A stretch of DNA of 48,472 nucleotides from Chitinophagaceae bacterium. Lineage in GTDB: Bacteria; Bacteroidota; Bacteroidia; Chitinophagales; Chitinophagaceae. The notes beneath the pieces are model-generated. The model was not told the origin of the DNA. It was given only the letters and a program-made list of their open reading frames with translations, and did not search any database. The first letter of the stretch is position 1, and each line of letters begins with the position of its first letter. The DNA lies in contig CANCVE010000022.1 in NCBI GenBank assembly GCA_947381435.1, positions 1 to 48,472 of the forward strand, in the 5' to 3' direction. Shown here one piece after another: positions 13,014 through 43,016 of this stretch. The translations under genes were made by a program, and so were the position numbers.

Positions 13014-13202
13014 TTGAGCCGACGAACTAAAAGCTAGCTGGTAACAAGCCAATAAGTAAGCAGTTGTGCTAGCTAAAATCAATAAACAATTACAGTAATT
13101 AAAATAAAAAAAGGCTTGTTCATGGCAATGTTATTAAATAATTGTTATGAACGTTTTGCGTTTTAATCATCAAGATCATTAAAAGAAAAATATTAATTGA
13201 AC

Positions 13203-13568
13203 ATGAGCTGTTTTTATTGTAAAACTGAAAAAGAAAATGAATACCCATTTATGGTTGAGATAGCAACGGTGGAAGGCGCTGTTAAGCACAAAGATTCAAT
13301 TAATATAAATCGCTGTGAAAAATGCTACATCTATCATGAAATGGATATAGTGTTTTCATCTGTTTTTGGAATGATCATTTCGGGGATTGTTGTATTCTTT
13401 TCTGAGAATCCTTTAGCAATAATCCTTTCCTTTCTTGTATCGATGTGTTTAGGGTTTCCTATTTACAATATCATACTAAATAAATGTGGGATTCGTTCGC
13501 AGACTGATGTTGAAAGTTCTCCCACAGTACAAAAATTTATTAAGCAAGGTGGTTATGTAGTAAAATAA
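13203..13568 (+). CDS. Small membrane protein with N-terminal CxxC pairs
   Basis: A 121-residue protein. Its N-terminal 45 residues carry two CxxC knuckles (C3/C6 in CFYC and C38/C41 in CEKC), which suggests a small zinc ribbon. Two hydrophobic helices follow (about 50-67 and 71-92), then a polar tail. I do not recognise the family. The ATG at 13203 is preferred to a TTG two codons earlier because it starts right at the first knuckle. The gene is 183 bases after the receiver gene and 20 bases before the first GT2-like gene, so it probably belongs to the same transcript as the two GT2-like genes and the small membrane protein that follow. Confidence 0.68.
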   Translation: MSCFYCKTEKENEYPFMVEIATVEGAVKHKDSININRCEKCYIYHEMDIVFSSVFGMIISGIVVFFSENPLAIILSFLVSMCLGFPIYNIILNKCGIRSQTDVESSPTVQKFIKQGGYVVK

Positions 13569-13588
13569 GTAGGTACTAAAATGAAAAA

Positions 13589-14860
13589 TTGAAATTTATG
13601 ACGTATAAAACTACACATCTTGATTTGAATATGTTATCTCAAGAAAAAGTTCCTTCAATAGAAAAACTTATTTATTTATGGTTTAATGGAAAAATGCTTG
13701 GTCACTTTTTCTATGAACCCAAAAAAAGGAATGATGCCTATTCAAATTATTTGCAACAGATTATTATGGCTATCGAGCCAACAATAAAACATTTACTAGA
13801 AAATAAAAGCGACAGGATAATAGACTCCTCAAATTGGCAAGACCTTATTAGGAAGGCTGACTTTACTAGTTTTCAATCCTTGCTTACCCAGTTGTTTTTA
13901 GAAACGGAGATTTCAAAATCAAAACAGCCTATTACAATTATTATATGCTCAAACAATAAAGAAATACAGGGTTTAAGAAGCGCCATTGATGCGTTGTTGT
14001 GGAGTATTTCAAGAAAGGATGAAATTATAGTAGTAGATTATTCAACTTCACTAAACAAAATAAAAGAAGAAACGAAGTACTATCCCGAAACGGTTTATTG
14101 TAGGGAAAAGAGTGGAAAATTAGCAAATGCACGAAATTTAGGTATTCAACAGGCAAAGAATTCAATTGTGGCTTTTACAGATGAAAGCGTTTGTGTTTCG
14201 AAGGCTTGGGTTGAGGAAATAAGACACGCGTTTACAGATAAAGAAATAATGGCAATGACAGGTTTAAAAATACCCGTAGAAATTGATTCGAATACAAAAC
14301 CATTTTTCAACAGGCATTGGGGTTATAATTTAAGTCATGTTACTCAAGTTATAAATAAAAGGATTTGTACTGGATTTTTTAAAGAAGATACTCAGTTACC
14401 TTATTGGGGTATAGCTGTAACAGGGAACATGGCTTTCAGAAAATCATTATTTTGTTCAGGCATTCAATTCGACAATTCAATGAAAAATAATTTATCGGAT
14501 ACAATGTTATTCTTTAAGATATTTTCTAAAGAGATTAAGTACATCTATCATCCTAATGCTTATGTATATGACCAAAATATTATCATCGAAAAAGCATGGA
14601 GAAAAGAGTTATTCCATTTCACTCAATCGCATTCGTTTTGGTTGTTATCTGATGAAAAGAGAGAGAGCTCGGTTAGTAAACGTTTCTTGAGTAATTACAA
14701 GAGATTTAGAAATTATAGAAATATTTCTGAGGCTGAGAATAGAAAAACTTTCAAGTCTGAAAGAAGTGGGGTGATAGCAGGCTTAATTAGCTACATAATG
14801 CACAATAAAGAAAAAGACAATATTGTATGCTTAGATAGCGCTTTAGAATTAAATAATTAA
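13589..14860 (+). CDS. GT2-like glycosyltransferase with N-terminal extension, eroded metal site (paralogue 1)
   Basis: A 423-residue protein. Residues about 1-105 form an N-terminal domain (KLIYLWFNGKMLGHFFY) seen in a subgroup of GT2 proteins. The GT-A domain starts at about 113 with PITIIICSNN, then DEIIVVDYS, KLANARNLGIQQAKNSIVAF, and TGNMAFRK (278-285). Where the subgroup normally has FTDDD, this protein has FTDES (197-200), and the later GGED-type acidic motif reads NLSDT, so metal binding and catalysis may be weakened. It is a tandem paralogue of the next gene, which begins on the base after its stop. Start: TTG 13589 gives the best match to the paralogue's N-terminus; ATG 13598 is the alternative. 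Substrate unknown. Confidence 0.8.
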   Translation: MKFMTYKTTHLDLNMLSQEKVPSIEKLIYLWFNGKMLGHFFYEPKKRNDAYSNYLQQIIMAIEPTIKHLLENKSDRIIDSSNWQDLIRKADFTSFQSLLTQLFLETEISKSKQPITIIICSNNKEIQGLRSAIDALLWSISRKDEIIVVDYSTSLNKIKEETKYYPETVYCREKSGKLANARNLGIQQAKNSIVAFTDESVCVSKAWVEEIRHAFTDKEIMAMTGLKIPVEIDSNTKPFFNRHWGYNLSHVTQVINKRICTGFFKEDTQLPYWGIAVTGNMAFRKSLFCSGIQFDNSMKNNLSDTMLFFKIFSKEIKYIYHPNAYVYDQNIIIEKAWRKELFHFTQSHSFWLLSDEKRESSVSKRFLSNYKRFRNYRNISEAENRKTFKSERSGVIAGLISYIMHNKEKDNIVCLDSALELNN

Positions 14861-16138
14861 ATGATGAAAGAATTTGTAATTTTTAAAACCGTAAATCTTA
14901 AGGTTGAAGATTTATCTCAGTTTCAAATACCTACCAAAAAATGTCTCGTTTATGTTTGGTTGGGAAATCGTGTACTTGGACACTTCTTTTTTAAACCAAA
15001 AGCAGATGAAAATATTAGAATAGGTTTTTTAGCTAAATTAACATTTGCACTTACAAAAACAATCGAAACTGAGTTAGAATTAAATTCAGTTGGTATAGAT
15101 AAAATAAATTGGAAGACCTTAATTTTAAGTGAAGATTTTAATGACTTTCTGTTCTTTTTAAACAAGCTCTTTCCCTGCAAAATTGAAACAAACGAAAGAT
15201 TGTCAGTCATTGTTTGTACTAATGAGAATGTTGAAGGGTTAAGAAATTGTTTGGCAGCATTAAAACATAATATAACAGAAAAAGATGAAATAATCGTAGT
15301 CGATTATTCCAAAGAGCATAAATATGCGGAATTGATGTTGAAGAACTATCCTGAGATTACTTACATTAAGGAAGACAAATTAAGGCTCGGAAAAGCTAGA
15401 AATGCGGGTATAAAGTTCGCTAAGAATTCAATTGTTGCTTTTACAGTTGATGAAGTGATGGTTTCCAAAATCTGGGCTGATGAAATAAAAAGTTCATTTT
15501 TAAATAAAAATGTAATGGCTGTATCAGGCTTATTAATTCCTGTAGAGATAAATTCGGCCACAGAACATTTATTTAATCGTTATTGGGCTTACAATCGTGG
15601 TTATTCAGAACTGACTTTTGATTACACCCATTTTAATAAACATGTAGAAAATAAAGAACCATTTTGTGGTATTGCGGTTAGTGGAAACATGGCTTTTAGA
15701 AAGTCAATATTTGAAAAGGTTTCGCTTTTTGATGAAGACATGGAGAATGAAATCATAGATGAAGTAATGGTCTATAATATTTTATCAAAAGGCTGGGAAT
15801 GCGTATATCAACCAACGGTATATGTGTATGAACAAGCTACTGTTACTTCAAAAAAAATAAAAAAGCAATTTTTTGATCACATGAAAGCGCAGACATTTTG
15901 GTTGCTCCAGAATAAAAGGTGTAATCCTATTTGTAAAAATCTTCCTTTTCATTATTATAGGATTTCAAAATATTATAATCAAAGAGGTCGATTGGAACCA
16001 ATTCCGGGTATTAAGGCGGAAATCTGGGGCATATTGGCTGGCATATTTGCAAATTATGCATTTAGGCTTAATCGAATTGGAAAGAATAATAAAGAAATAA
16101 TCTACAATAATAATATTCCTCAGTTCATCGCAAAATGA
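14861..16138 (+). CDS. GT2-like glycosyltransferase with N-terminal extension, eroded metal site (paralogue 2)
   Basis: A 425-residue paralogue of the preceding gene, aligning along its full length. The N-terminal domain has CLVYVWLGNRVLGHFFF; the GT-A domain has RLSVIVCTNE (about 113-122), EIIVVDYS, LGKARNAGIKFAKNSIVAF and SGNMAFRKS. The DDD metal motif is replaced by VDE (196-198), a different change from that in paralogue 1, and the downstream acidic motif reads IIDEV. Start is ATG 14861, immediately after the previous stop. Its stop overlaps the next start as ATGA, implying translational coupling. Two paralogues with different motif losses suggest a heteromeric or non-canonical enzyme, but this is inference. 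Confidence 0.8.
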   Translation: MMKEFVIFKTVNLKVEDLSQFQIPTKKCLVYVWLGNRVLGHFFFKPKADENIRIGFLAKLTFALTKTIETELELNSVGIDKINWKTLILSEDFNDFLFFLNKLFPCKIETNERLSVIVCTNENVEGLRNCLAALKHNITEKDEIIVVDYSKEHKYAELMLKNYPEITYIKEDKLRLGKARNAGIKFAKNSIVAFTVDEVMVSKIWADEIKSSFLNKNVMAVSGLLIPVEINSATEHLFNRYWAYNRGYSELTFDYTHFNKHVENKEPFCGIAVSGNMAFRKSIFEKVSLFDEDMENEIIDEVMVYNILSKGWECVYQPTVYVYEQATVTSKKIKKQFFDHMKAQTFWLLQNKRCNPICKNLPFHYYRISKYYNQRGRLEPIPGIKAEIWGILAGIFANYAFRLNRIGKNNKEIIYNNNIPQFIAK

Positions 16139-16434
16139 TAATAGATACAATAGTTCTCTTTTTTAATGCTTTTGGCATTCATTTGATTTTTGTTTTTTTA
16201 ATTATCAGACTTATATTATTGCATTACTTAAAGCCAAAGAAATTAAATAGCCGCTCAAAATCTAAATTAAGCTGGTATTTTATGTCAAGTACATCTAGAA
16301 ATAAATACATTTCTCAAAATGAATACAATCGCTTTCTAAACAATCAGAAAACTTTAAAATTTTTAAGTATTCTATATTATTGCTCCATTATACTTACAGT
16401 TGTTATAAAGTTTTTATTATACAAGTTGAATTGA
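16135..16434 (+). CDS. Small two-helix membrane protein coupled to the GT2-like pair
   Basis: A 99-residue protein. A first hydrophobic helix (about 5-30: IVLFFNAFGIHLIFVFLIIR) is followed by a strongly basic, polar middle (LKPKKLNSRSKSK) and a second helix near the C-terminus (about 75-96). By the positive-inside rule the middle should face the cytoplasm. I do not recognise the family. The ATGA overlap with the preceding glycosyltransferase gene indicates translational coupling and is the main reason to accept the gene. It could anchor or assist the two GT2-like proteins at the membrane. Confidence 0.65.
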   Translation: MIIDTIVLFFNAFGIHLIFVFLIIRLILLHYLKPKKLNSRSKSKLSWYFMSSTSRNKYISQNEYNRFLNNQKTLKFLSILYYCSIILTVVIKFLLYKLN

Positions 16435-16864
16435 TACTCTATTCTGGCGCATGAAGGTAAAATCAATAAAGTATTGCTCTGAAACCGGGTAACTCCTGAA
16501 AATGCATTCTTATCAAAGAACGCTTATTAAGTAACAAGAACTTCTGATTAGTGCATTTATAAAGGCGGACAAAGAAAAAAACAAATTGAGAACAATCGGT
16601 AAACCAAAAGAGCCTAAAACAATAAAAGAGTTTGACCATGCTTAACCAAATGCACTACAAAAGTGTTTAAGAAAGTGCTTGCTTGCGGAATAAATTCAGC
16701 AATAGTGCTTTCTCTTAGCAGTATTTTTTTTAATCAAAACCATTTAGCAAATGCTGCTACATCCCAAAGCTGAAATAGATGTGATCTTATGTTACAAAAG
16801 CAACGATTAATACACCTACAGTATCAAACAGGTCTGTCTTTTAAAATTGTATACAAAGTAAATT
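16435..16864. other. Intergenic stretch before the T9SS genes
   Basis: 430 bases separate the small membrane gene from the first T9SS substrate gene. The only notable content is a 36-codon signal-peptide-like frame at 16663-16773 (listed separately). No clear TAnnTTTG promoter, hairpin or RNA gene is seen. Confidence 0.5.
16663..16773 (+). pseudogene. Short GTG-started frame resembling a signal peptide
   Basis: From GTG 16663 the frame reads a start, FKKVLACG, a hydrophobic core (SAIVLSLSSIFF), then LANAATSQS and a stop at 16771. Basic start, hydrophobic core and a small-residue cleavage-like end are the marks of a Sec signal peptide, but nothing follows the putative cleavage site. It may be the decayed start of a lost secreted-protein gene or a tiny secreted peptide. 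Chance cannot be excluded at this length. Confidence 0.25.
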
Positions 16865-18517
16865 ATGTTGCCAGTTTTTAATAAATGTGTTGTAGTAACA
16901 GCTTCACTATTGTTTTTGTGTGTTTTGGGTAATGCCTCAACTACCTCATTGCGGATTGCGGATACTGCCATCAATCCTCCTCTTATCACATCAAGTTATA
17001 ATGATTCTTTTTACAATTCTGTAATAGAAGCAGCTTCGTGTATTGCACAGCCATACTTATTGCAACAGAATTATTATACCATGCCCGGCGTTACGGTAAG
17101 TGGAAGTTCGCTTAACTATAAGGGTATAAATTATCCTGTTTCCGAAAGCTATTTCAATCCCGGTACAGGTTACTATATAGCATCATCTTTATATGCACAA
17201 TATGGTATTAGTAACTTTAAATCTATATGGCCCAATCAATGTCCTAATGCATTTTATGATTCTGCAACCCATACCTTTTATTCTAAAATAGATTGTGTAG
17301 GTTTTGGTACAAGACTATTATCGGTTGTAGGAGGAACCACTACTAGTACAAATGCTTATCTTAACTTAATAAATAGGATTAAAACTAATAATGTGTCAAA
17401 TATTGCAGCAAAGGGTTTTGTTGCTACTGCTTATCAATTTGCAGTTGATTTCCCAACCCTAAAAACCGCACCCAAACCAGGATGGGCTTATATATCCGGA
17501 AATGTTTGTGATATTAATGTGATAGATGGATACAATAAAGTTCTTCGTAGTGGCGTGGGTACGTATAATGGCGTTCGCAAGGGTGGCTTTGCTCTTTGTT
17601 TGCCGGGTGATGTGCTTGCTTTTGGTTACGATTCATCATCTTCTTCTAATGGTCATTTTATGATATTAGATAAACAACCGCAATTGTTGGATGCTACTAC
17701 TCTTCAGACCTACTATCCTAAAGCTACTGCCACTAAGGTAAAAGCATTTGTAAAAGCTCATAAGGTTTATGCAGTTAGTGTAATAGATGATTCTGGAAAG
17801 GATGCACACTTCAATGATTCAAGAACTAGTTATAGTGGCATTGGTCATGGTACTGTTCTGATAGTAGCTGATACTGCGGATGATGCTCCTGTTGGTTTTA
17901 TTTTTTCGCCCTCTACCAATATTTCCTACACTCCTGTAGATACTTCTCATTGTTATGCAATTTCGGTAGGAAGGTTTGTAAGTGCAGCACAATTGCCTGT
18001 TTCATTAGCTTCTTTTAGTGGGAAAGTAAATAATAAAACTGTACTACTTAATTGGGAATCAGCAACTGAAATAAATGTAGAAAAGTTTGAGATAGAACGC
18101 AGTACCGATGGGAATAATTACAGTGTAGTTGGTAGTGAGAATGCCTTTGGGCAAGGTGGAAATAATTATCAGTTTTCAGATATTGCTCCACCATCGGGTA
18201 TTAGCTATTACAGATTAAGATTAATAGATAAAGATGGAACGCTTAGCTACAGTAAAGTAATAGTTATTCAGCTAGGTAGTAACACTAAGCCAATAGTTGT
18301 ATATCCCAATCCTACCAAGGATAATTTAAATGTTATTGGTGCTGAAATTACAAGGCTAGAAGTGTTTGACAACAGTGGGAGAGAGGTTTGTAATCAATTT
18401 TTCAATCATGCAACTAATCCAACATTAAAAGTAGGGAGTCTCACAAATGGAATATATCACTTAAGAATATTTACAAAGAAAGGTAAAAGTATCTTAGTTG
18501 ATTTTATGAGAGAATAA
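16865..18517 (+). CDS. Secreted NlpC/P60-like cysteine peptidase/amidase with T9SS sorting domain
   Basis: A 550-residue protein. It has a Sec signal peptide (basic start, VVVTASLLFLCVLGNA, cleavage near residue 24). Residues about 40-340 contain KIDCVGFGTRLL with C144 in a DCxGF context, then CLPGDVLAFGYDS and NGHFMILDK with H264. This is the Cys, PGDxxxF, GHxxI order of NlpC/P60-like papain-fold hydrolases. A region about 375-470 (LLNWESATEINVEKFEIERS) is the beta-rich domain often found before T9SS sorting domains. The C-terminus (VVYPNPTKDNLNVIG... ending LVDFMRE) is a type A sorting domain, so the protein is probably exported and surface-attached or released. Likely a peptidoglycan or peptide amidase; substrate unknown. 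Confidence 0.8.
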   Translation: MLPVFNKCVVVTASLLFLCVLGNASTTSLRIADTAINPPLITSSYNDSFYNSVIEAASCIAQPYLLQQNYYTMPGVTVSGSSLNYKGINYPVSESYFNPGTGYYIASSLYAQYGISNFKSIWPNQCPNAFYDSATHTFYSKIDCVGFGTRLLSVVGGTTTSTNAYLNLINRIKTNNVSNIAAKGFVATAYQFAVDFPTLKTAPKPGWAYISGNVCDINVIDGYNKVLRSGVGTYNGVRKGGFALCLPGDVLAFGYDSSSSSNGHFMILDKQPQLLDATTLQTYYPKATATKVKAFVKAHKVYAVSVIDDSGKDAHFNDSRTSYSGIGHGTVLIVADTADDAPVGFIFSPSTNISYTPVDTSHCYAISVGRFVSAAQLPVSLASFSGKVNNKTVLLNWESATEINVEKFEIERSTDGNNYSVVGSENAFGQGGNNYQFSDIAPPSGISYYRLRLIDKDGTLSYSKVIVIQLGSNTKPIVVYPNPTKDNLNVIGAEITRLEVFDNSGREVCNQFFNHATNPTLKVGSLTNGIYHLRIFTKKGKSILVDFMRE

Positions 18518-18805: not shown

Positions 18806-21800
18806 ATGAAGCTCAGATTTTTACTTGCATTTGTTATCAATTCCATTTGTTTTTTTAGTTATGGTCAAACAAAGCCATTGTATTTTGTAAATGGTGCAAA
18901 CCAAAAGTTTAGTGTTTGTCAGAATTCGTCTGGTTTCGACTTTTCTAGTTACCTGACAACTTATGAGGCCACAATAGGAAAGTTCCTTTCATATACACCT
19001 CTAAGTGAAACTCAAAATGGAAGTTTTACGAATATTCCCAAGACTTACAAAAACGGAACGCAGATACTCACTCCAAGTAACACAGTATATGCTCCCCCTA
19101 CAGACTTTTCAGGAACAGATATATTTGTTATTCAGGTAAGCGATGGTACAAATACTGCTACCACTACTTTTACGGTAACCATTAATCCTTTACCAACTGT
19201 ATCTGCTATAATAGGCAACACAATTTCTTGCGGTACGGGTTCTAATAATTTATATAATACTACAGGAAATGGAGTCTGGACTAGCGATAACACACAGGTA
19301 AGTACTGTTGATACAAATGGTAGGGTGACGCCAATTACAGCTGGTTCTGCCAATATTGGGTATACCATTACCGATAGCAAAACGGGTTGTGTTAATACAG
19401 CTACTGTTGCATTTGTAGTAAGTGGTCCGCCTAACTTAAACGGTAGTTCTGGCACAGCAAATACTTGTGTTGGTTCTACTACTCAATATTTTAATGCAAC
19501 ACCCCTACAAACAGGATACACAACATATTGGACAAGCAACAATAAGGCTGTTGCTACTGTTGATAGTTCCACAGGGATAATTACAGGTGTAAGTGCTGGT
19601 GTAGCTGGAATAACCTATACTGTTGTAAATAATTATGGATGTTCTGCTGGAACAAGAAGGAATGTAACTATAGCAACCTCTCCTGTTGCTGATACTATTG
19701 GATACACTACCAAAAGCGTTTGTGTTGGTTCTACAATAGTTCTGACTAATGCTACTAGAGTAGGTTTCGGTGTTACACGTACTTGGTCTTCGTCTAATAA
19801 TAATGCTATTATTTCTAATGGTGTTGGAGCAGGTGGCGCTTCAGCTGAAAATGTGTTGGGTGCTATTCCAGGAACAGATTCAATTTTCTTTAAATTAACA
19901 AGTGGTGGATGTACTTCAAGTTCAAGTATTGTAGTTACAATTAATCCTAAACCAGTAATTGGTGCAATTAGTGGTACTGCTAACATCTGTACAAACAATA
20001 CCGTACAATTTAGCGATACAACAACAGGAGGTAAATGGACTAGTAACAAAACAACCGTTGCAACAATTGATAGTATTAATGGGTTACTAACAGCTTTATC
20101 TGCAGGTAACTCTACTATTAGATACACCGTTAAAAATAGTTATGGTTGTTCTGATTCTGTTCCTTTTGCTGTAACAGTTAGTGGAACATCTGCACTATCG
20201 CCAATAACAGGGAGTAGTACTATATGTATTGGTTCTTCTACAACATTCTCTAATGGTACTTTTGGAGGTACTTGGTCTAGTAGTAATCCAAAAATAGCAA
20301 CGATAGATAACACTGGCTTGGTAAGTGGTAAGTCTACCGGTGCTGATACAATTTATTATACTTATGCTAGTGGTGGATGTACACAAGTAGCATCATTCCC
20401 AATAAATGTTGCTTCTAGTGTAGCGGTAGCTCCAATTCAAGGTGCAGCGAGTGTTTGTATGAATGGCAACGTTACGCTGACTAATGCTACTGCCGATCCT
20501 ACTTCTTCTTGGTCAAGTAGTAACCAAAATGTTGCATTGGTAGATAACAATGGTAACATTACTACCATTAGTCCTGGTGTAGTAACAATACAATATACTA
20601 TCGGTAGTGGAAGTTGTATGGGAACGGCTAGTAAAAACTTTATTGTTTATGACTTACCTGCACTTAGTGACAATAGTATAAGTGATACTGCTCTTTGCGT
20701 GGGTTCATTTGTAAGGTTGAAGAATGATAGTATTGGTGGGGTTTGGAATACAACTAGTGCAAGTGCTACTGTAGATTCTACAGGTTTGGTTACAGCTGTT
20801 ACAAGTACTGGTCAGAGCTCAGTTATTAGCTATAGTATCACCGACAAACATGGCTGTTACAATGCTGCAGTTACTACAATAGGTGTTAACCCTGTTCCTA
20901 ATAAGTTTACTATTACAGGTTCAAATTCAACTTGCTATAGTACTTCAGGCAGTAGTATTACCTATACTACTAACCTTCCAGCGGGGCAATCGGCTAAATG
21001 GAGCAGTAGTAATAGTGCAGTTATAAAAGTAATTAATACTGGTACCGTTACAAACAATACAAATACTGTAAAGGCTGTAGGTATTGGTACTGCCAACCTT
21101 TATTGTGTTGCTTCAAACGGATATTGTACAAGAATAGACACATTACCTGTAACAATTTTGGCTAAACTACAAGCTTCTGAGATTGTAGGTTTAGACAATC
21201 TTTGTATGGGTACAAATGCCACATTTACTGATTCTACTTCAAGTGGTATTCCAACATGGACTCTTACACCGGTAACTGGCGGTACAGCAAATTTAGTAGC
21301 TTCTGGTGCTTCTGTAGTACTTACTCCTGTCACTACAGGTACTGCAACCATTAGATACGTATTAAATGGTGGTAGTAACGCATGTTCTGATACTGTTTAC
21401 AAGTCTATAACTATTAATGATACAACTGCCATTAAGCCAATTACAATCACGCCTACGCCTACAAACTATTGTTCAGGGTCTACTTATCAATTTACAAATG
21501 CAACAACTGGAGGAAAGGGGATTTGGACAAGTGGTACACCTGCTGTAGCTATTATTGATTCTACAAGTGGATTGTTAACTGCTATTTCTAACCCAAGTAG
21601 AAATGGTCAGCCTACAACAGATATTATTTCATATACTTTTTTAGATAATAAAGGATGTACCTCTAGAACAAGATATTCTGTACCTGTTTCTAGTGGAGGT
21701 AATCTTGGCACTATTACACTGGTAGGTGCAGTTAGTCCTATTTGTGCAAATAATACCTATAATTTATTAATGACTTTAACAAATCCGAACAGAACTGGTA

Positions 21801-24800
21801 GCTGGTCTAGTACTAAACCTTTAGTAGCTTCAGTGGATTCTATTAGTACTACTTCTGCTAAAGTTTCTGGTTTAACGTCGGGCTCAACTGTTATACAATA
21901 CCAATCTCCTGCGAGAGGTGGTTTTTGTCCTGCGCTTACAAATTTTAACCTTAATGTTTCCGCTGTACCTATTATTGTTCCGAACACTGGTGGTGATACA
22001 GTACTTTGTGTAGGACAGGCTACACAACTTTACAATGCATCTCCTACTCCTTCTGGTGCAAAGGCTGGTGTTTGGAGTTCTTCTGATAGTAAAGTTGTAA
22101 CTGTAAATGCTTATGGACTTGTTTCTGCAGTAGGTGCAGGATCTGCATCAATATATTACACTGAAACTAATGTATCCGCTGGTTTGTGTAGTAATTATAC
22201 CTCTACAAACTTTAAAGTTAATGCGGTGCCAACTGTTGCTAATATTACTAGTGCTAGTTCAGACATCTGTGTAGGAAGCTCAATAAAACTAAGTGATTTG
22301 ACATCAGGTGGTGTTTGGGGAATAAACGATTCAACGATTGCAACTATCAATGCCCAAACTGGTGATGTTACTGGTATTTCAGCAGGAAGTGTAATTGTAA
22401 CTTATTCTGTTACTGACCCAAATACAAATTGTACTTCAACTGTGTTTGGAAATGGAAATGTTATTGCATTACCTAATATTGAAGCAATAACAGGGCCTAC
22501 CAATGCATGTTTTGGAAGTACAACACAGTTATTTGATGCAACACCTCAAGGTACTTGGTCTAGCTCCGATAATAGTATAGCAACTGTTAGTAGCGCCGGT
22601 CTTGTTACTCCTAAAGGATCAGGGAAGGTTGTTATTTCTTATTCATACACAAACCCAACTTATGGTTGTTCAAATTTAGTAACTGATTCAATTGCTGTAG
22701 GTATTCCACCAACGGTTGCACCAATTACTGGTAACAATGTTATCTGTTCTAGTGGAATGAGCATTCTTTCGAATGCAACAACTGGTGGTACTTGGTCTAG
22801 CACAAACAATGCAGTTGCAACAGTAGATGCAAATGGAGTTGTTTCTCCAGTTTCTTTTGGAACAGATTCTATTAAATATACATTAGTTGATTCAGCTTCA
22901 AATTGTAGTACTTCTTCTGTATTAGTAGTTACAGTCAATCCAACACCAGTAGCTTCTTTTTCAGTCAACAATGCATCACAATGTTTAAGTGGTAATTATT
23001 TTGTGTTTAATAATACTAGTACTATTAGTTCAGGATCATTAAACTATTCTTGGACAATTGATGGTAAAACTGTTTCATCATTTAGCCCTACTTACACTTT
23101 CACAACCCCAGGAACTTACACAGTTAAACTTGTTGTAACTAGTCTGACTGGATGTTCTGATAGTGCAACACAAACAGTAACGGTTTATCCTCAATCTAAT
23201 CTTGAATTTTCTGTTAATAATAATAGTCAATGTTTGATTGGAAATAGTTTTATATTCAGTAATACATCGTCAATCAGCTCTGGGACCTCCACTTACAACT
23301 GGAATTTTGGTGATAATAGTTCAATTGTTACTTCTGCAAGTTCATCTTACACATATGGTAAAGCAGGTACATTTAATGTAATTCTTACATCCTCAACTGA
23401 TTTTGGTTGTATTGATAGTATATCTCAAGCTGTTTCTATTGCAGCAAATGTTATTCCAACTGTATCAATTAAGGCTTCTTCTTCTAATATTTGCACAGGT
23501 GCTTCTGTAGTATTTACTGCTTCCTCTGTAAATGGTGGTTCAACCCCTAGCTATGAATGGCATAAAAATGGTTCGGTTGTTGGTACAGGTATTACTTACA
23601 CTGATACTGCTTTAGTTAATGGAGATTCTGTTTATACCATATTAACTACTAGTACTGCATGTTATACGTCACTTACTGCTCAAAGTAGCAAAATTGGAGT
23701 AGCGGTTACTACATATGTTTTACCACGTGTAAGCATTGCAACTCCATCAACTACCATATGTTCTGAAACAAGTACAACTTTTACGGCTAGTCCAGTAAAT
23801 GGCGGATCTACTCCTTCATATCAATGGTTAGTAAATGGTAATAGTGTAGGCACTGGATTAACTTATACTTCTAGCTCATTTGCAGACAAAGATGTGGTAA
23901 GTGTTATCCTTACAAGTAGTGCAAACTGCGTATTGTCAAGAAGTGTTAATAGTAATTTAATTAATTTAGCTGTTAAAACATCAACAAGTTCTACTACTAA
24001 CTATTCAATTTGTGCTGGTACTTACTTCACTTTCAACGGAATAACTTATGACAGTGCTGGAACTTATGTAGCTCATTTAAAGAATTCAATTGGTTGTGAT
24101 AGTACCGCAACTTTAATATTGGCTGTTAAGTATGCTACTTCATCTACCACTAAAGCAAGTATTTGTAATGGTGACTCTTATTTGTTCAATGGTACAAATT
24201 ATAAAGTAGCAGGTAGTTATACCATTCATTTATTAAACTCACTTGGTTGTGATAGTAGTGCGACTTTAGTATTGACTGTTAATCAACCATCAACTTCTAG
24301 CACTAATATTTCTGCTTGTTCTAGTTACACTTGGAATGGCAGTACTTACACTAAAGGTGGAACATATACTTTCATCACTAAAAATGCAGTTGGATGTGAT
24401 AGTACTGCAAGCTTAATGCTAACAATTAATCAGCCTTCTACTTCTTCCGCAAGTGTTACCGCATGTAGCAGTTATACTTGGAATGGTACTACTTATACCA
24501 AGAGCGGAAATTATACTTATGTAACTAAAAATGCTGTTGGTTGTGATAGTACTGCAACTTTGGTACTTACAATAAATCAACCATCAACTTCATCTACTAG
24601 CATTACCGCTTGTAGTAGTTACACCTGGAATGGTTCTAATTACACAAAGAGTGGTTCGTACAACTTTGTAACTAAGAATGCAGTTGGTTGTGATAGTACG
24701 GCAACATTAATATTAACAATTAATCAGCCATCAACTTCGTCTACTAGCATTGCAGCATGTAGTAGTTATTCTTGGAATGGTTCTACTTACACCAACAGTG

Positions 24801-27800
24801 GAACATATACTTTCATAACTAAGAATGCAGTTGGTTGCGATAGTACAGCTACTTTAAAACTAACTATTAGTCAACCATCTACCTCATCTAATAGCATCAC
24901 CGCTTGTAGTAGTTACTCTTGGAATGGCATTACTTATACAAAGAGTGGTACTTATACTTATGTAACTAAGAATTTTGCTGGATGTGATAGTACTGCCACC
25001 TTGTTATTGACCATAAATTATCCATCAACTTCTTCTACCAGCATTACCGCTTGTAGCAGTTATTCATGGAATGGTACAACTTATACTAAGAGTGGTTCAT
25101 ACAATTATGTAACTAAAAATGCCTTAGGTTGTGATAGTACTGCTACCTTAATTTTAACTATTAATCAACCATCAACTTCATCTACTAGCATTACTGCTTG
25201 TAGCAGTTACGATTGGAATGGCAATACTTACACAAAGAGTGGTAACTACATGTTCGTAACTAAGAATGCTGTAGGTTGTGATAGCACAGCTACTTTGGTA
25301 TTGACAGTAAACTACCCTTCTACTTCTTCTACTAGCATTACCGCTTGTAGCAGTTACACATGGAATGGAACTACCTACACTAAGAGTGGTGCTTATACCT
25401 ATTTAACTAAGAATGCGGTAGGATGTGATAGCACTGCTACATTGATATTAACTGTAAACAATCCTTCTACTTCATCTACAAGTATTACTTCTTGCGATAG
25501 TTATTTTTGGAATGGATTTACTTACACTAAGAGTGGTACATATACTTATGTAACTAAGAACGCTGTAGGTTGTGATAGTACGGCTACCTTATTGTTGACT
25601 GTAAATTATGCATCAACTTCTTCAACCAGTATTACTGCATGTAGCAGTTATACCTGGAATGGCACAACTTACACTAAGAGTGGTAGTTATACTTATGCTA
25701 CTAAGAATGCAGTAGGTTGTGATAGTACTGCTACCTTATTGTTGACAGTAAATTATCCATCAACTTCTACCACAACGGCTAGTATCTGTGCGGGCAATAC
25801 TTATACATTTAATGGTAGTACTTATGACAGCGCTGGTACTTACCTTGCTCATCTAACAAATGCTGTAGGTTGTGATAGTGCTGCTACTCTAGTGTTGTCA
25901 GTACGATACCCTTCTTCGTCAATTACTAAAGCTAGTATTTGTGCTGGGAATACTTACTCATTCAATGGTAAGAGTTATGACGTTGCAGGTACTTATGTTG
26001 CGCATTTAACTAATGCAGTAGGTTGCGATAGTGCTGCTACTTTAATATTAACTGTTAATGCATTAACTTCTTCAACTACTAATTTGAGTATTTGCCCGAG
26101 CGAATTACCATATAAATGGAATGGTTTAAACTTCATTGGTGCTGGTTCACAAACTGCTCATCTGATAAATGGCAATGGTTGTGATAGTGCTGCAACATTA
26201 GTATTGTCAATAAATCAACCAACTAGTTCAAGTACCAAATTAAGTATTTGTTCCAGTGAGTTACCTTATACATGGAATGGCCTAACATTTACAGGTGCTG
26301 GTTCATTGACGGCTCATCTAACAAATGCTGTAGGTTGTGATAGTGCTGCTACTTTAGTATTGACAGTTAATCCTGTTACTACTTCAACCACTAGTATGAG
26401 CATTTGCCCAAGTTCATTACCTTATACCTGGAATGGTCTGACCTTTACAGATGCAGGAACTCAATCTGCACATTTAACAAATAGTAAAGGATGTGATAGT
26501 GTTGCTACGTTGATTTTATCATTAAATCCTACAAGCGCATCTACTATAAACGCTAGTATTTGTGCAGGTGCTTCTTACAGTTTCAATGGTAAAACTTATG
26601 ATAGTGCAGGTACTTATGTTGCGCATTTAACTAATTCATTTGGTTGTGATAGTGCCGCTACTTTGGTTCTTACTGTTAAGTATCCAACGTCATCAACTAC
26701 TTCAAATAGTATTTGTGCAGGTAATGGTTACAACTTCAACGGAACTATTTACGATAGTGCAGGAACTTACACCTTGCATTTAACTAATGCTGTAGGTTGT
26801 GATAGCACTGCTACTTTAGTTCTTTCAGTTAAATATCCTAGCATATCTACAACTAATGCTAGCATCGATTCTGGTAGTACTTATACATTCAATGGTTCAG
26901 TTTACAGTAATCCTGGTACTTATGTCTCTCATCTTACAAATAGTGTAGGTTGCGATAGTACTGCTAAATTGATATTGACAGTTATCAATCCAACTTCATC
27001 TACCACTATTGCAAGTATTTGTGCTGGTAGTAGCTACATGTACAGTGGAGTTGCTTACGATACTGCTGGTACTTTCGTTAATCATTACAAAAATGCAGCA
27101 GGTGGAGATAGTACAGCAACTTTAATATTGACTGTAAACGTTTCAACTTCTTCTACAACAACCGCTAGTATTTGTGCTGGTTCAGGTTATACATTTAATG
27201 GTACTAGCTATGATAGTGCTGGAACTTATACTACTCATTTAACTAATAGTTTTGGTTGTGATAGTATTGCAACTCTTGTATTAAGTGTTAAGTATCCAAC
27301 TTCTTCTATAACAACCGCTAGTATTTGTGTAGCTGGTTCTTACAATTTTAATGGTACTGCATATACTGCCGCTGGAACATACAATGTTCATTTCACCAAT
27401 GCTGCTGGTTGTGATAGTACTGCAACTTTAGTTCTTACTGTTAACAACACAGTATCGTCCATGACTACTGCTAGTATTTGCGCAGGAAGTACTTATACTT
27501 TCAACGGAATAAATTATGATAGTGCAGGAACGTATGTTTCACACCTTACAAGCTCTGTTGGTTGCGATAGTACAGCTACATTAATATTAAGTGTTAAATA
27601 CCCAACTGCATCTACTACAACCGCTAGTATTTGTTCAGGTAGCTCTTACTACTTCAATGGATCAGTTTATGATGTTGCTGGAACTTATACAGCACATTTA
27701 ACTAATTCAGTTGGTTGCGATAGTATTGCAACGCTAGTATTGTCTGTAAAAGATGCAAGTCGGTCTATTGCTAATGCAAGTATATGCTCAGGTAGCACTT

Positions 27801-28909
27801 ACACTTTCAATGGTATTACTTACGATAGTGCTGGAACTTATCAAGCACACTTTGTAAATGCTGTTGGTTGTGATAGTACCGCTACATTAGTATTGACTGT
27901 AAATTATCCAACATCATCAACCACTAATGCAGCTATCTGCTCTGGAAGTAGCTATACATTTAATGGTAGTGTTTATGATAAGGCTGGAACTTTTGTAGCA
28001 CATTTAATAAGTGCTACAGGTTGTGACAGTACTGCTATATTAATATTGACAGTTAATACTTCTGTAACATCAACTACAACTGCTAGCATTTGTGCAGGAA
28101 GTAGTTATACATTTAATGGTTCAACTTATGATAGTGCTGGAACTTATGTTTCTCACTTAACAAGTGCTGCTGGTTGTGATAGTGCTGCAACTTTAGTATT
28201 AGCAGTTAATTATCCTTCTTCTTCAATTACTAATGTTGATATTAAGAAAGGTGATACGTATACTTTCAATGGAGTTGTTTATGATACCGTTGGTACTTAC
28301 AAAGCACACCTTACTAACTCAGTAGGTTGCGATAGTACTGCTACTTTGGTTCTTACTGTTACAGACGTTGTTCCAGTTACTTTAAGATCATTCACTGGTT
28401 ATTACCAATCAGGAGCTACCAATTTAACTTGGTCTACTGCAACTGAATTAAATGTAGCTAACTACACAATTCAACGTAGTTCAAATGGTGTAGATTTCTT
28501 TAGCGTTAAATCAATACCGGCTACCAATAAATTGAGTGGAGCTACTTACAATTATGCTGATGTTATTAGTTCAACTGGTAAACTGTACTATAGATTGAAA
28601 TTGGTTGATAAGAGTGGAGTTTCTACTTACAGTGCAACTGTAGTGGTAACTGTAGGAGCTAATTATAGTTTCTCACTTTATCCTAACCCAGTTAAAAATG
28701 TACTTACATTACACGTAACTAATGATAAATCAGAAAAGGTAACTATTCAAGTTGTAAATATGTTAGGCAAACAAGTTCATCAGCAACAAACTCAATTAAA
28801 TTGGGGTGCTACAGATGTTACTCTTGATGTAGCCAATATTGCACAAGGAAATTACACTGTAATCATTAAGGGTGAACATGTTCAACAAAAACAATTCATT
28901 AAGTTATAG
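18806..28909 (+). CDS. Giant T9SS-exported repeat protein, putative surface adhesin
   Basis: A 3367-residue protein. It has a signal peptide (KLRFLLAFVINSICFFSYGQ) and a short N-terminal beta region. Then come about 15 Ig-like Big_2-type domains of roughly 75-90 residues (typical core GGTWSSSNPKIATIDNTG, each with a late Cys), two PKD-like domains (NYSWTIDG...; STYNWNFGDN...), and two further Ig-like domains (SYEWHKNG, SYQWLVNG). Next are 29 tandem units of 49-52 residues ending GCDSTATL. The protein ends with a linker domain (NLTWSTATELNVANYTIQRS) and a type A T9SS sorting domain (SLYPNPVKN... QFIKL). Probably a long fibrous cell-surface protein for attachment; no enzymatic motif seen. It is followed by a strong terminator. 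Confidence 0.93.
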   Translation: MKLRFLLAFVINSICFFSYGQTKPLYFVNGANQKFSVCQNSSGFDFSSYLTTYEATIGKFLSYTPLSETQNGSFTNIPKTYKNGTQILTPSNTVYAPPTDFSGTDIFVIQVSDGTNTATTTFTVTINPLPTVSAIIGNTISCGTGSNNLYNTTGNGVWTSDNTQVSTVDTNGRVTPITAGSANIGYTITDSKTGCVNTATVAFVVSGPPNLNGSSGTANTCVGSTTQYFNATPLQTGYTTYWTSNNKAVATVDSSTGIITGVSAGVAGITYTVVNNYGCSAGTRRNVTIATSPVADTIGYTTKSVCVGSTIVLTNATRVGFGVTRTWSSSNNNAIISNGVGAGGASAENVLGAIPGTDSIFFKLTSGGCTSSSSIVVTINPKPVIGAISGTANICTNNTVQFSDTTTGGKWTSNKTTVATIDSINGLLTALSAGNSTIRYTVKNSYGCSDSVPFAVTVSGTSALSPITGSSTICIGSSTTFSNGTFGGTWSSSNPKIATIDNTGLVSGKSTGADTIYYTYASGGCTQVASFPINVASSVAVAPIQGAASVCMNGNVTLTNATADPTSSWSSSNQNVALVDNNGNITTISPGVVTIQYTIGSGSCMGTASKNFIVYDLPALSDNSISDTALCVGSFVRLKNDSIGGVWNTTSASATVDSTGLVTAVTSTGQSSVISYSITDKHGCYNAAVTTIGVNPVPNKFTITGSNSTCYSTSGSSITYTTNLPAGQSAKWSSSNSAVIKVINTGTVTNNTNTVKAVGIGTANLYCVASNGYCTRIDTLPVTILAKLQASEIVGLDNLCMGTNATFTDSTSSGIPTWTLTPVTGGTANLVASGASVVLTPVTTGTATIRYVLNGGSNACSDTVYKSITINDTTAIKPITITPTPTNYCSGSTYQFTNATTGGKGIWTSGTPAVAIIDSTSGLLTAISNPSRNGQPTTDIISYTFLDNKGCTSRTRYSVPVSSGGNLGTITLVGAVSPICANNTYNLLMTLTNPNRTGSWSSTKPLVASVDSISTTSAKVSGLTSGSTVIQYQSPARGGFCPALTNFNLNVSAVPIIVPNTGGDTVLCVGQATQLYNASPTPSGAKAGVWSSSDSKVVTVNAYGLVSAVGAGSASIYYTETNVSAGLCSNYTSTNFKVNAVPTVANITSASSDICVGSSIKLSDLTSGGVWGINDSTIATINAQTGDVTGISAGSVIVTYSVTDPNTNCTSTVFGNGNVIALPNIEAITGPTNACFGSTTQLFDATPQGTWSSSDNSIATVSSAGLVTPKGSGKVVISYSYTNPTYGCSNLVTDSIAVGIPPTVAPITGNNVICSSGMSILSNATTGGTWSSTNNAVATVDANGVVSPVSFGTDSIKYTLVDSASNCSTSSVLVVTVNPTPVASFSVNNASQCLSGNYFVFNNTSTISSGSLNYSWTIDGKTVSSFSPTYTFTTPGTYTVKLVVTSLTGCSDSATQTVTVYPQSNLEFSVNNNSQCLIGNSFIFSNTSSISSGTSTYNWNFGDNSSIVTSASSSYTYGKAGTFNVILTSSTDFGCIDSISQAVSIAANVIPTVSIKASSSNICTGASVVFTASSVNGGSTPSYEWHKNGSVVGTGITYTDTALVNGDSVYTILTTSTACYTSLTAQSSKIGVAVTTYVLPRVSIATPSTTICSETSTTFTASPVNGGSTPSYQWLVNGNSVGTGLTYTSSSFADKDVVSVILTSSANCVLSRSVNSNLINLAVKTSTSSTTNYSICAGTYFTFNGITYDSAGTYVAHLKNSIGCDSTATLILAVKYATSSTTKASICNGDSYLFNGTNYKVAGSYTIHLLNSLGCDSSATLVLTVNQPSTSSTNISACSSYTWNGSTYTKGGTYTFITKNAVGCDSTASLMLTINQPSTSSASVTACSSYTWNGTTYTKSGNYTYVTKNAVGCDSTATLVLTINQPSTSSTSITACSSYTWNGSNYTKSGSYNFVTKNAVGCDSTATLILTINQPSTSSTSIAACSSYSWNGSTYTNSGTYTFITKNAVGCDSTATLKLTISQPSTSSNSITACSSYSWNGITYTKSGTYTYVTKNFAGCDSTATLLLTINYPSTSSTSITACSSYSWNGTTYTKSGSYNYVTKNALGCDSTATLILTINQPSTSSTSITACSSYDWNGNTYTKSGNYMFVTKNAVGCDSTATLVLTVNYPSTSSTSITACSSYTWNGTTYTKSGAYTYLTKNAVGCDSTATLILTVNNPSTSSTSITSCDSYFWNGFTYTKSGTYTYVTKNAVGCDSTATLLLTVNYASTSSTSITACSSYTWNGTTYTKSGSYTYATKNAVGCDSTATLLLTVNYPSTSTTTASICAGNTYTFNGSTYDSAGTYLAHLTNAVGCDSAATLVLSVRYPSSSITKASICAGNTYSFNGKSYDVAGTYVAHLTNAVGCDSAATLILTVNALTSSTTNLSICPSELPYKWNGLNFIGAGSQTAHLINGNGCDSAATLVLSINQPTSSSTKLSICSSELPYTWNGLTFTGAGSLTAHLTNAVGCDSAATLVLTVNPVTTSTTSMSICPSSLPYTWNGLTFTDAGTQSAHLTNSKGCDSVATLILSLNPTSASTINASICAGASYSFNGKTYDSAGTYVAHLTNSFGCDSAATLVLTVKYPTSSTTSNSICAGNGYNFNGTIYDSAGTYTLHLTNAVGCDSTATLVLSVKYPSISTTNASIDSGSTYTFNGSVYSNPGTYVSHLTNSVGCDSTAKLILTVINPTSSTTIASICAGSSYMYSGVAYDTAGTFVNHYKNAAGGDSTATLILTVNVSTSSTTTASICAGSGYTFNGTSYDSAGTYTTHLTNSFGCDSIATLVLSVKYPTSSITTASICVAGSYNFNGTAYTAAGTYNVHFTNAAGCDSTATLVLTVNNTVSSMTTASICAGSTYTFNGINYDSAGTYVSHLTSSVGCDSTATLILSVKYPTASTTTASICSGSSYYFNGSVYDVAGTYTAHLTNSVGCDSIATLVLSVKDASRSIANASICSGSTYTFNGITYDSAGTYQAHFVNAVGCDSTATLVLTVNYPTSSTTNAAICSGSSYTFNGSVYDKAGTFVAHLISATGCDSTAILILTVNTSVTSTTTASICAGSSYTFNGSTYDSAGTYVSHLTSAAGCDSAATLVLAVNYPSSSITNVDIKKGDTYTFNGVVYDTVGTYKAHLTNSVGCDSTATLVLTVTDVVPVTLRSFTGYYQSGATNLTWSTATELNVANYTIQRSSNGVDFFSVKSIPATNKLSGATYNYADVISSTGKLYYRLKLVDKSGVSTYSATVVVTVGANYSFSLYPNPVKNVLTLHVTNDKSEKVTIQVVNMLGKQVHQQQTQLNWGATDVTLDVANIAQGNYTVIIKGEHVQQKQFIKL
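23981..28366 (+). repeat. 29 tandem coding repeats (about 147-156 bp each)
   Basis: Each unit encodes an SSTTxASIC or STSITAC start, a Y-T-F/W-N-G core and an AVGCDSTATLVLTV end. Three subfamilies occur in blocks: units 1-2, 13-14 and 18-29 (SICAGSTYTFNG...HLTN), units 3-12 (ACSSYTWNGTTYTKSG...TKNA), and units 15-17 (SICPSELPYTWNG...). Nearly all units have two cysteines. Unit 20 lacks the first (ASIDSG), unit 21 lacks the second (AAGGDS), and unit 29 lacks the first (VDIKKG). Synonymous codons differ between units, so the array is not a very recent DNA duplication. Confidence 0.93.
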
Positions 28910-35670: not shown

Positions 35671-35783
35671 TTGAGTTATGAGTTATGAATTATGAGTTAT
35701 AAGTTATTAAAGCGAGTGACGTAAATTGTTAAAATGAGCAATTTAATCTGTACTAATAACTCATGATTCATAACTCATAACTA
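35671..35783. repeat. Intergenic inverted repeat, GAGTTATGAATTATGAG-type arms
   Basis: The left arm 35671-35710 repeats words such as GAGTTATGA and GTTATAAG. The right arm (about 35753-35783) is the near-complement (AATAACTCATGATTCATAAC). About 42 bases of unique DNA lie between. The right arm overlaps the end of ribD and encodes its last residues and stop. Of the long intergenic inverted repeats here it has one of the best arm matches. Confidence 0.8.
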
Positions 35784-41202: not shown

Positions 41203-41661
41203 ATGTATTTCGAAGCAAAAAATGATGATTATACCATTAGCACCAATCCTGCATTGATTAATGTGGTGGCGGTGCATCAATATTTATCCGAAGAATCCTA
41301 TTGGGCAAAGGGTATTTCTTTCTCAATAGTTCAAAAATCTATCAATCATTCACTTTGTTTTGGATTATATAAGCAAGATGTCATGGTAGGATTTGCAAGG
41401 CTTATTACCGATACCGCCACTTTTGCTTATCTGTGCGATGTTTTCATTTTGCCTGCCCATCAAGGAAATGGATTAGGCAAATGGTTAATTCAAACTATTC
41501 AAAATTATCCCGAATTACAAGGACTACGCCGTTGGATGTTGGCTACAAAAGATGCTCACGGTCTGTACACCCAATATGGTTGGGAGCCACTTACAGAAGA
41601 GTTGAGTAAACGGTTTATGCAGGTTTACAATCCTAATGTGTACGTGCAAAACAAAGGATGA
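41203..41661 (+). CDS. GNAT-family N-acetyltransferase
   Basis: A 152-residue protein. It has the GNAT fold: VGFARLITDTATFAYLCDVF for strands 3-4, then ILPAHQGNGLGKWLIQTI, whose Q/R-x-x-G-x-G/A loop binds the acetyl-CoA pyrophosphate. RRWMLATKDAHGLYTQYGWE is the strand-5/helix region with the usual late aromatic turn. It is a single-domain, soluble enzyme whose substrate cannot be told. It lies 20 bases after the receptor's terminator and before a long gene-free stretch with a palindrome array. Confidence 0.9.
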   Translation: MYFEAKNDDYTISTNPALINVVAVHQYLSEESYWAKGISFSIVQKSINHSLCFGLYKQDVMVGFARLITDTATFAYLCDVFILPAHQGNGLGKWLIQTIQNYPELQGLRRWMLATKDAHGLYTQYGWEPLTEELSKRFMQVYNPNVYVQNKG

Positions 41662-41939
41662 TGATAGTTTTAAACCTAAAAATATCCTATTTAAAGGGAA
41701 GGTAACTTCTGTGAAAAAAAGATTCCTGATAAATTAACTCATTGAGTGATGAATATATACTGCTTTCTATACCGATAAACTACATTGTATTGGCGTTGAA
41801 TCTATTAGTTATAGGAAAGAGTTGTGTTGATAGATAAGATAAGTTTACACCAATATAAAACAACTGTCTGAATGCACTACTGTATTTGAGATAGATAAGA
41901 AGTAACTTGTTTTACGGCTTTTGTAAATGCATATACCTA

Positions 41940-42207
41940 TAAACTAGGTGGTTTAGTGTAGTATTAACGTAGCAGGGTGTGTTAACCACGTGGTTAATAC
42001 ACCTTGCTACGTTACGATGTGGTTTAACCACGTGGTTAATATACCTTGCTACGTTACGATGTGGTTTAACCACATGGTTAATATACCTTGCTACGTTACG
42101 AGGTAGTTTAACCACGTGGTTAATACACCTTGTTGCGTTCCGAGGCGGTTTAACCACGTGGTTAATACACCTTTTTACGTTACGAGGCTATCTAACCACT
42201 TAATTTA
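41940..42207. repeat. Array of palindromes TTAACCACGTGGTTAA, 42-bp period on a 21-bp dyad lattice
   Basis: Core palindromes start at 41982, 42024, 42066 (one change), 42108 and 42150. Decayed copies lie at both edges (41940, 42192), exactly 42 bp apart. Midway between them, 21 bp from each centre, lies a weaker dyad centred on ACGT (CCTTGCTACGTTACGAGG type). The copy left of the first core is inverted, so 41965-42014 is a 50-bp dyad with few mismatches. Outside the array, the interval 41662-42593 holds no gene that I can support; a 60-codon frame at 42209-42391 is not convincing. Confidence 0.95.
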
Positions 42208-42520
42208 AATGACATCACAGTTTATTTTATCGTTCAGTAAAGCCTTTTATATCATTGCAAAATGCGAAAGCTTGTTTAAGAAAATGCATTTACCTAAATC
42301 TAAATATTGCAGGAAGTGTCTTAATCTAAAAATAGATGGTTTGTTATCGGACTATTTATGTAATCAACTGCATCTTATTAGTTCCAACTAGAAAATGTTA
42401 GTTAAGCAACAAATTGAATATGTTGGATTGATATACTTGTATTAGTTTATGCTTAATAGCTAGTTTTAAGATCCACTATTTAATTAATCCTGCTCTTAAT
42501 AAATATAAATTTATTAATAA

Positions 42521-42552
42521 TTGGTCACGCTGTCAATTTTATACTACATTTG
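42521..42552 (+). promoter_or_regulatory. -33/-7 promoter of the DUF1398 gene
   Basis: TTG (42521-42523) is followed after 21 bases by TACATTTG (42545-42552), a perfect TAnnTTTG. Transcription would start near 42560, about 34 bases before ATG 42594. Confidence 0.65.
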
Positions 42553-42593
42553 TTGTGGTAAATCTACTAGTATGAATGTAATAAATTAATTAA

Positions 42594-43016
42594 ATGTTCT
42601 CAACAGAAGGATTCAGAATTGCGAAAGCGAAGGTGAAAGACAGGGCAGGATTTCCAGGTTATGTAGCACATCTAAAGGAAATTGGCATCTCGTACTATGA
42701 AAACTTTCTAGAATATGGGGAGGCTCATTACTTTAGCAAGAACGGGTTTAAATCGTCAATTGGTAAAAGATATGTAGGCATAAAAGTGGCAGATACTAGT
42801 GATAGCAAACAATTCTTGATACACCTTAAAGAGTTTGATGAAGCCAAATTCGATTACCTTACCTTTTGTAACCATTGTGCCAATTGCGGCGTAGAAAAGT
42901 GGATAGTCTCTATTGAGGATATGACAATCACTTATTATAATAAAGCAGGCGAAGTAATTTATAAGGAGAATATTCCTGCTACCCCGGATTCAAAGAAGTT
43001 GGAACTAGATATGTAG
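42594..43016 (+). CDS. DUF1398-family protein (YbcV-like)
   Basis: A 140-residue soluble protein. GFPGYVAHLKEIGISYYENF near the N-terminus, then EAHYFSKNGFKS, LTFCNHCANCGVEKWIVSIE and MTITYYNKAGEVIYKENIP match the DUF1398 family (E. coli YbcV and relatives). These are small proteins of unknown role found scattered in many bacteria and in prophage regions. The FCNHCANCG segment has three close cysteines that could bind a metal, but this is inference. Full family length. It stands alone with its own promoter. Confidence 0.85.
   Translation: MFSTEGFRIAKAKVKDRAGFPGYVAHLKEIGISYYENFLEYGEAHYFSKNGFKSSIGKRYVGIKVADTSDSKQFLIHLKEFDEAKFDYLTFCNHCANCGVEKWIVSIEDMTITYYNKAGEVIYKENIPATPDSKKLELDM

Follow-up and report, generated by a model that had tools for sequence, protein, structure and literature searches.

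Architecture of the focal array and its surroundings

The window, that is, the whole 48,472-bp stretch of DNA analyzed here, is contig C22 of G000, a Chitinophagaceae draft genome of 4.88 Mb in 231 contigs. A gene-free interval (41662-42593) lies between a GNAT acetyltransferase gene (41203-41661, + strand; Pfam PF00583), the 3' end of which faces this interval, and a DUF1398 gene (42594-43016, + strand; Pfam PF07166) with its 5' end towards it. Within this interval, we identified an array with a 42-bp period, hereafter the focal array (41977-42199 as the maximum-scoring lag-42 segment), with a score of 71.5 compared to a maximum of 8.0 among 300 shuffles of the 932-bp interval; TRF called 4.9 copies at 41982-42187, and the DUF1398 gene starts 407 bp away. 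The sole listed open reading frame (ORF) of at least 80 codons in the interval (81 aa) crosses the array and was interpreted as a by-product of the 42-bp period; a coding reading was rejected, considering that the periods of other arrays, 41 and 43 bp, break the frame.

The array has the architecture described in the original prediction, including the surrounding 930 or so bases free of genes. Five copies of the core palindrome TTAACCACGTGGTTAA, A1 to A5 (41982-41997, 42024-42039, 42066-42081, 42108-42123, and 42150-42165), recur at a spacing of exactly 42 bp, the third with one mismatch and the center CACATG, and decayed copies follow in phase at the left (TAAACTAGGTGGTTTA, 41940-41955) and right (CTAACCACTTAATTTA, 42192-42207) edges. 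A weaker palindrome, B, approximately CTTGYTACGTTACGAG, accompanies each core at a distance of 21 bp: the first copy (42004-42017) is 21 bp from the center of A1, and further copies are found at steps of 42 bp (42046-42059, 42088-42101, 42130-42143, and 42172-42185), with dyad centers at 42010/42011, 42052/42053, and so on, and one at the left end at 41968/41969. The half-unit to the left of the first core is inverted, producing a 50-bp dyad around this core (41965-42014) with 92% complementary arms. None of these array features is assigned a strand. The dyad of the focal array is 5.2 SD above column shuffles. Direct match is 0.30 at lag 21 versus 0.91 at lag 42, so that B is visible as symmetry only; with a 42-bp period, extended symmetry about the core also produces a dyad at +21, so that the two dyads are not fully independent.

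The first array in the window (8952-9189, no strand assigned) lies on a 21-bp lattice (lag-21 match, 0.71), and its word, GTACAAA-N4/5-TTTGTAC, is unrelated to those of the focal array, as originally noted. A gene on the - strand (8222-8917), the 231-aa product of which matches no known family, starts 35 bp from this array. By eye, the protein has a fibronectin-like end and, in architecture, resembles family B (see below); sequence homology to family B was not found. The window also contains an ORF of 3,367 aa (18806-28909) with many coding repeats of 147-156 bp.

A 21-bp lattice in the genome and the genus

TRF analysis of an 854-kb sample of G000 (about 17.5% of the genome) yielded 91 arrays, of which 59 had periods of 21, 42, 63, or 84 bp and 11 had a period of 14 bp; small numbers were found at periods of 41, 43, 44, 22, 64, 82, 85, and others. 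In the first half of this sample, where 82% of the bases are coding, 37 of 39 arrays were intergenic. The autocorrelation of all intergenic stretches of at least 80 bp in G000 reached z-scores of 12.9, 12.2, 7.0, 8.7, 4.6, and 6.2 at lags 21, 42, 63, 84, 105, and 126, respectively, with further peaks at 7 and 14, compared to 2.8 at lag 22, 2.9 at lag 41, and less than 1.5 at lags 10/11, 20, 31/32, and 52/53. The lattice peaks recurred in G005, in G007, and in the pooled remaining genomes of the genus. Thus, as originally predicted, arrays of different words on one 21-bp lattice are present in the sampled G000 DNA, and further ones in the genus, so that the refuting outcome named with the prediction, an absence of further arrays, did not arise. 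The lattice is weak both in 15 stretches from other genera of the family (z = 2.2 at lag 21) and in 75 AMP nucleosidase loci (z = 4.2). Among the best 80 matches in named genomes, the closest relatives of the G000 AMP nucleosidase are from Chitinophagaceae MAGs.

The G000 arrays with a period within 2 bp of a multiple of 21 (59 of 91) were denoted class II; being selected by period, this class is not itself evidence for the lattice, which comes from the autocorrelation and the raw periods. All class II arrays but one, which abuts an ORF, keep a distance of 29 bp or more from predicted genes. Their flanking genes are divergent in 19 cases, co-directional in 14 + 13, and convergent in 6, with one side missing in 7, showing no strong orientation preference among the 59. 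Gene calls came from simple ORF scoring, and the assemblies are drafts, so errors are possible in both.

A lag-7 signal marks another class, with 21 arrays in G000, which is a separate matter: 12 of the 21 overlap or lie within 5 nt of the predicted 3' end of a gene. Direct heptamer repeats are present in the window at 4004-4095, 8058-8220, and 35672-35782 and in locus L174 at 12979-17092, with inverted heptamers nearby and often starting at a stop codon; such repeats at gene ends resemble long hairpins and are perhaps terminators. Another member of the genus, G012, has long arrays of 9 and 7 bp (L058, 3623-4034, and L188, 13569-13914, respectively), a repeat habit unlike that of G000.

Dyad symmetry of the arrays

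Comparison with column shuffles revealed dyads at p < 0.05 in 29 and at p < 0.01 in 14 of 70 arrays of the genus with periods of 21, 42, 63, or 84 bp; in the other 41, no dyad was detected at p < 0.05. The 29 arrays with a period of 42 bp show a further maximum of the mean dyad score at an offset of exactly 21 bp relative to the best dyad (0.447 against a null value of 0.267), with 12 of them individually reaching 0.5. Dyad columns were also better conserved beyond the selection effect (0.055 versus 0.021, with 0 of 40 shuffles equal; 25 arrays).

Arrays upstream of family-A genes

DNA and pattern searches allowing up to three mismatches located the focal word in arrays at only two places in G000, namely, in C22 and near the end of contig C55. 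The exact core was found in 2 of 59 genomes, G000 and a genome of the same genus with a single copy inside a coding region. The C55 array consists of five cores, one to two mismatched, with decayed edges in phase, and lies upstream, at a distance of 136 bp, of a gene whose 320-aa product belongs to a family of approximately 320-aa proteins that we denoted family A. Three family-A proteins showed no significant match in Pfam, NCBIfam, or PHROGs. Family A is represented in 11 of the 13 genomes of the genus, with 11 matches in G000, and, with at most five candidates scored per genome, in at least 31 of 396 genomes across the order (at least 13 of 165 genera). Neither the window nor the sampled G000 DNA apart from the C55 gene yielded a family-A match; no remnant of such a gene was found beside the focal array, which was accordingly classed as solo.

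We then considered all detected family-A members for which 170 bp or more of upstream sequence was available (n = 59). An array with a period of 41 bp (21 cases) or 42 bp (26 cases) precedes 47 of these 59 genes across the order, 27 of 30 within the genus and 20 of 29 outside it, at a median distance of 151 bp from the start codon (range, 2-450), and 33 of the 47 arrays contain a dyad at p < 0.05. In G000, all nine family-A genes in this sample have such an array compared to 56 of 461 other genes; by the same score, the background in 75 other Chitinophagaceae loci is 4 of 840 genes. In the family-A loci outside the genus, 3 of 11 other genes also pass, a small control in which some genes perhaps face the same array.

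Among the 12 family-A genes without a clear array, six (L309, L303, L339, L316, L325, and L324) retain a best lag of 41 or 42 with a match of 0.47-0.64, one is a broken 189-aa ORF (L302), and two have short upstream DNA (L328 and L335). In L330, a 41-bp array is located downstream instead, the only downstream 41/42-bp array among the 29 members outside the genus, and nothing comparable is present in L331 or L329; TRF found no 41/42-bp array downstream of the 33 family-A members from the genus. Neighboring genes differ among ten family-A loci, so that the unit appears to be the gene plus the array. Two 212-aa family-A ORFs with near-equal scores, L299 (at the end of contig C73 of G000) and L300 (at the start of C60), are possibly parts of a single repeated gene that the assembly has split.

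Structure prediction for family A suggested a hairpin of two helices of about 60 residues followed by a C-terminal beta-sandwich (mean pLDDT 89, pTM 0.61), with no convincing whole-chain match in PDB or the viral library and no recognizable DNA-binding fold. Similar arrays, with periods of 21, 42, or 63 bp, adjoin genes for shorter proteins that we denoted family B and for which the model consists of a three-helix bundle and a fibronectin-III-like C-terminus (pLDDT 78, pTM 0.48). Family B was identified mostly through the flanking arrays; L048, the sole member that was found by homology and has upstream DNA, has an array evident by lag (42, 0.61) and not by TRF. The libraries named no DNA-binding domain in three family-A and eight B-type proteins.

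Word sharing between gene-linked and solo arrays

Comparison of 21 upstream regions of family-A genes from G000, G005, and G007 with 78 sampled arrays showed that, in addition to the match between the C55 and C22 arrays, the array upstream of the L294 gene shares its word with the solo arrays L038 and L040, and the L303 array of G005 shares its word with two solo arrays of G000, L028 and L170. In the G000 class (n = 59), besides the C55 gene array itself, only five arrays share a word with any of the 21 upstream regions. Because most solo arrays match no gene array, the word link is demonstrated for the focal array and not for solo arrays in general. A shared regulon was considered and rejected, as the 30 neighbors scanned around the focal and word-sharing arrays are functionally unrelated. 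A CTAGCTAG-type word is common to L172 (4564), L033 (18182), and L164 (2165), next to genes of unrelated functions, namely, an MFS transporter, PEPCK, and mutL.

Evolution of array words and spacing

Family-A pairs were taken as orthologous on the basis of protein identity, supplemented by aligned upstream DNA in the C55 set and the L263/L258 pair. Between the C55 array and its counterpart in G005, 294 bp can be aligned without an indel. Overall, the array is not more conserved than the flank (222 of 294 positions identical versus 98 of 126), and only the inner part of A (47/56) and site B (88/98) stand out, against the spacers (51/84) and the outer core arms (36/56); in the linked genes, 55% of the synonymous sites differ, and dN/dS is 0.14. 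In the left core arm, TT is replaced by CA in four of the five core units and by AC in the fifth. The gap-free alignment, running from the array as far as the start codon, includes G000, G005, and G001; in the latter, the protein identity is 57%, and the consensus word is changed to TGAATCAGGTAATTCA. The L263 and L258 arrays (protein identity, 89%) also align without gaps, with one half-site kept and the other replaced in successive units without a change in length; the two loci also have the promoter-side end in common, and the linker contains two one-base gaps. Changes of this type could have arisen through parallel selection or through gene conversion among units.

Other pairs diverge more, and the lattice and spacing may also change. 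The words are unrelated, and the periods are 42 and 41 bp, in L292 and L301 (79% protein identity); the arrays share little in L295 and L306 (84%) and are unrelated in L304/L306 and L296/L306 (83-85%). The possibility that the word tracks the protein was dropped, the pattern being seen only for a few close pairs. Upstream of mutL, the words of G005 and G003 are alike by eye and differ in copy number, while in G000 the flanks are conserved but enclose a different word. The G000 mutL ORF itself (L164, 1042-2103; contig C9) encodes 353 aa and is shortened on the 3' side compared to approximately 630-660 aa in those relatives from the genus that were identified. Furthermore, at some orthologous intergenic regions, the array is missing in one species. 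The changed words, missing arrays, and copy-number differences among orthologs indicate that arrays are gained, lost, and rewritten.

Possible mechanism and alternative explanations

From the geometry, the dyads, the gene linkage, and the in-register change of words in indel-free alignments of orthologs, we infer protein binding, cooperativity, and regulation. The element class would consist of tandem palindromic sites that recur every 20.5-21 bp and act in cis on DNA; this spacing corresponds to two helical turns, so that all sites would lie on one face of the helix. A strong site A often alternates with a weaker site B, which yields the 41/42-bp unit; such arrays are common about 150 bp upstream of a family-A gene, with similar ones upstream of some family-B genes. 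A dimeric DNA-binding protein would fill successive sites cooperatively, and the linked gene would thereby be controlled. Judging from sequence, we see about an even chance that phased sites for such a putative protein control family-A genes, with the focal array as a solo instance of them. The half-spacing of 20.5/21 bp and the gap-free link to the start codon in the C55 set fit proteins stacked on one helical face. With respect to an operator array, dyads, phased spacing, and conserved sites are all present, the dyads being significant in part of the arrays only. Given that the focal array carries the C55 word, the same factor should bind both; at the focal array, it might act on the neighboring genes (the likeliest candidate being DUF1398, which starts 407 bp downstream) or be titrated; the role for DUF1398 is a guess from position.

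The alternative that survives best, and that we nevertheless consider unlikely, is self-recognition, whereby the family-A (or family-B) protein would bind its own upstream array in the manner of an autoregulator or an iteron-binding initiator, with solo arrays as further targets. The upstream linkage across the order and the words shared by the C22 solo array with the C55 gene array and by L038 and L040 with the L294 gene array are compatible with such a scheme. However, closely related proteins with unrelated arrays argue against simple self-recognition, as in the two pairs with L306 at 83-85% identity; considering that proteins with 80-90% identity can be linked to unrelated words, the linked protein is hardly a word-specific reader. 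A hypervariable reading patch was sought in the family-A protein and not seen, and, as described above, no DNA-binding fold was recognized.

It is improbable that the array functions at the RNA level, being transcribed into hairpin units similar to those of type III toxin-antitoxin systems, even though it precedes a single protein gene, comprises several near-identical units of 41/42 nt, and contains dyads that could form short stems. In the sense strand, mismatches within the dyads show no excess of G.U over A.C: GT exceeds AC in 13 arrays, AC exceeds GT in 11, and 6 are ties, and the sense-strand totals are 34 G.U versus 45 A.C cells (30 arrays, dyad cutoff 0.75). An apparent antisense signal in raw totals (GT 49, AC 88) was dropped because the per-array counts at the 0.75 cutoff disagree. 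The lack of a G.U excess favors sites at the DNA level over RNA hairpins; moreover, the family-A proteins scanned matched no toxin family, solo arrays lack the linked gene, and the exact 20.5/21 half-spacing is unnecessary for RNA.

A neutral or selfish minisatellite, in which slippage or conversion with a 21-bp quantum seeds functionless intergenic arrays, has a similarly small probability. Fast word turnover, the absence of the array from some orthologous regions of one species, and the abundance of heptamer repeats in these genomes would all be expected of it, but not the indel-free counterpart arrays with sites conserved above synonymous positions, the upstream tie to one gene family across the order, or the intergenic location of 37 of the 39 arrays in the first G000 sample, even though a 21-bp unit keeps the reading frame. 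A nucleoid-organizing lattice, close to the idea behind the original prediction, with one abundant protein reading DNA shape, would agree with one geometry for many words and with apparently A/T-rich positions at ±5 to 8 in 26 even dyads but appears quite improbable because few arrays occur in the family members that were sampled beyond the genus, and their occurrence upstream of one gene family far above the background rate weakens a role for a nucleoid protein.

Returning to phased sites for a dimeric protein, we lean slightly towards an undescribed module of the order in which genes of an unknown family are mostly preceded by tandem-palindrome arrays, the geometry (two-turn lattice, unit length, and, where the alignment is best, the spacing from the gene) would pass to descendants as the word is exchanged in register in one unit after another, the code would consist of spacing and symmetry and not of sequence, and solo arrays such as the focal one would belong to the same network. 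Regulatory DNA is usually known by its sequence; here, the word can vary between relatives, whereas the period and symmetry stay constant, and so does the gene distance where the alignment is best, in arrays associated with a protein family that none of the libraries names. Such arrays make it testable how cis-elements can swap their word and still function, and they direct attention to an unread system of an environmental bacterial order.

Comparison with known systems

According to a published study (PMC4679880), heptamer intergenic tandem repeats are present in Beggiatoaceae, cyanobacteria, and some Bacteroidetes, and an origin by slippage has been proposed for them. The arrays described here are likewise intergenic and tandem, and this genus has heptamer arrays as well; however, the 21-bp lattice class was picked without a lag-7 signal and is enriched in palindromes. 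Among the open-licence papers searched by title and abstract opening, none described such arrays.

REP/BIME elements associated with RAYT Y1 transposases are also dispersed intergenic palindromes, some of them linked to genes, but here, many words occur per genome. Y1_Tnp genes are present in 12 of the 13 genomes of the genus; the identity of family A with RAYT was ruled out, as three proteins do not match Y1_Tnp (PF01797). ParB binds parS, a 16-bp palindrome, and the focal core is a 16-bp palindrome with a CACGTG center as well; unlike parS, these are 21-bp arrays, many other array words lack CACGTG and differ between loci, and three family-A proteins gave no ParB-family match.

In type III toxin-antitoxin systems (ToxIN and its kin), an array of repeat RNA with a similar unit length precedes the toxin gene. 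The location of a repeat array upstream of one protein gene is common to both, but the arrays described here lack the G.U signature, and some are solo. No toxin of the ToxN/CptN/TenpN kind was detected by Pfam in three family-A proteins, and PADLOC gave no hit of this or any other kind for four.

The iterons of plasmid Rep initiators are tandem sites spaced about two helical turns apart, upstream of the gene. No Rep-type match was found for three family-A proteins in Pfam, NCBIfam, or PHROGs, and a tblastn search with the C55 protein gave no hit either among phages or among 72,556 plasmid records, the source genomes being draft contigs. The arrays described here resemble iterons in the 20.5/21-bp half-spacing and the upstream position and differ from them in having many words per genome and in being often palindromic.
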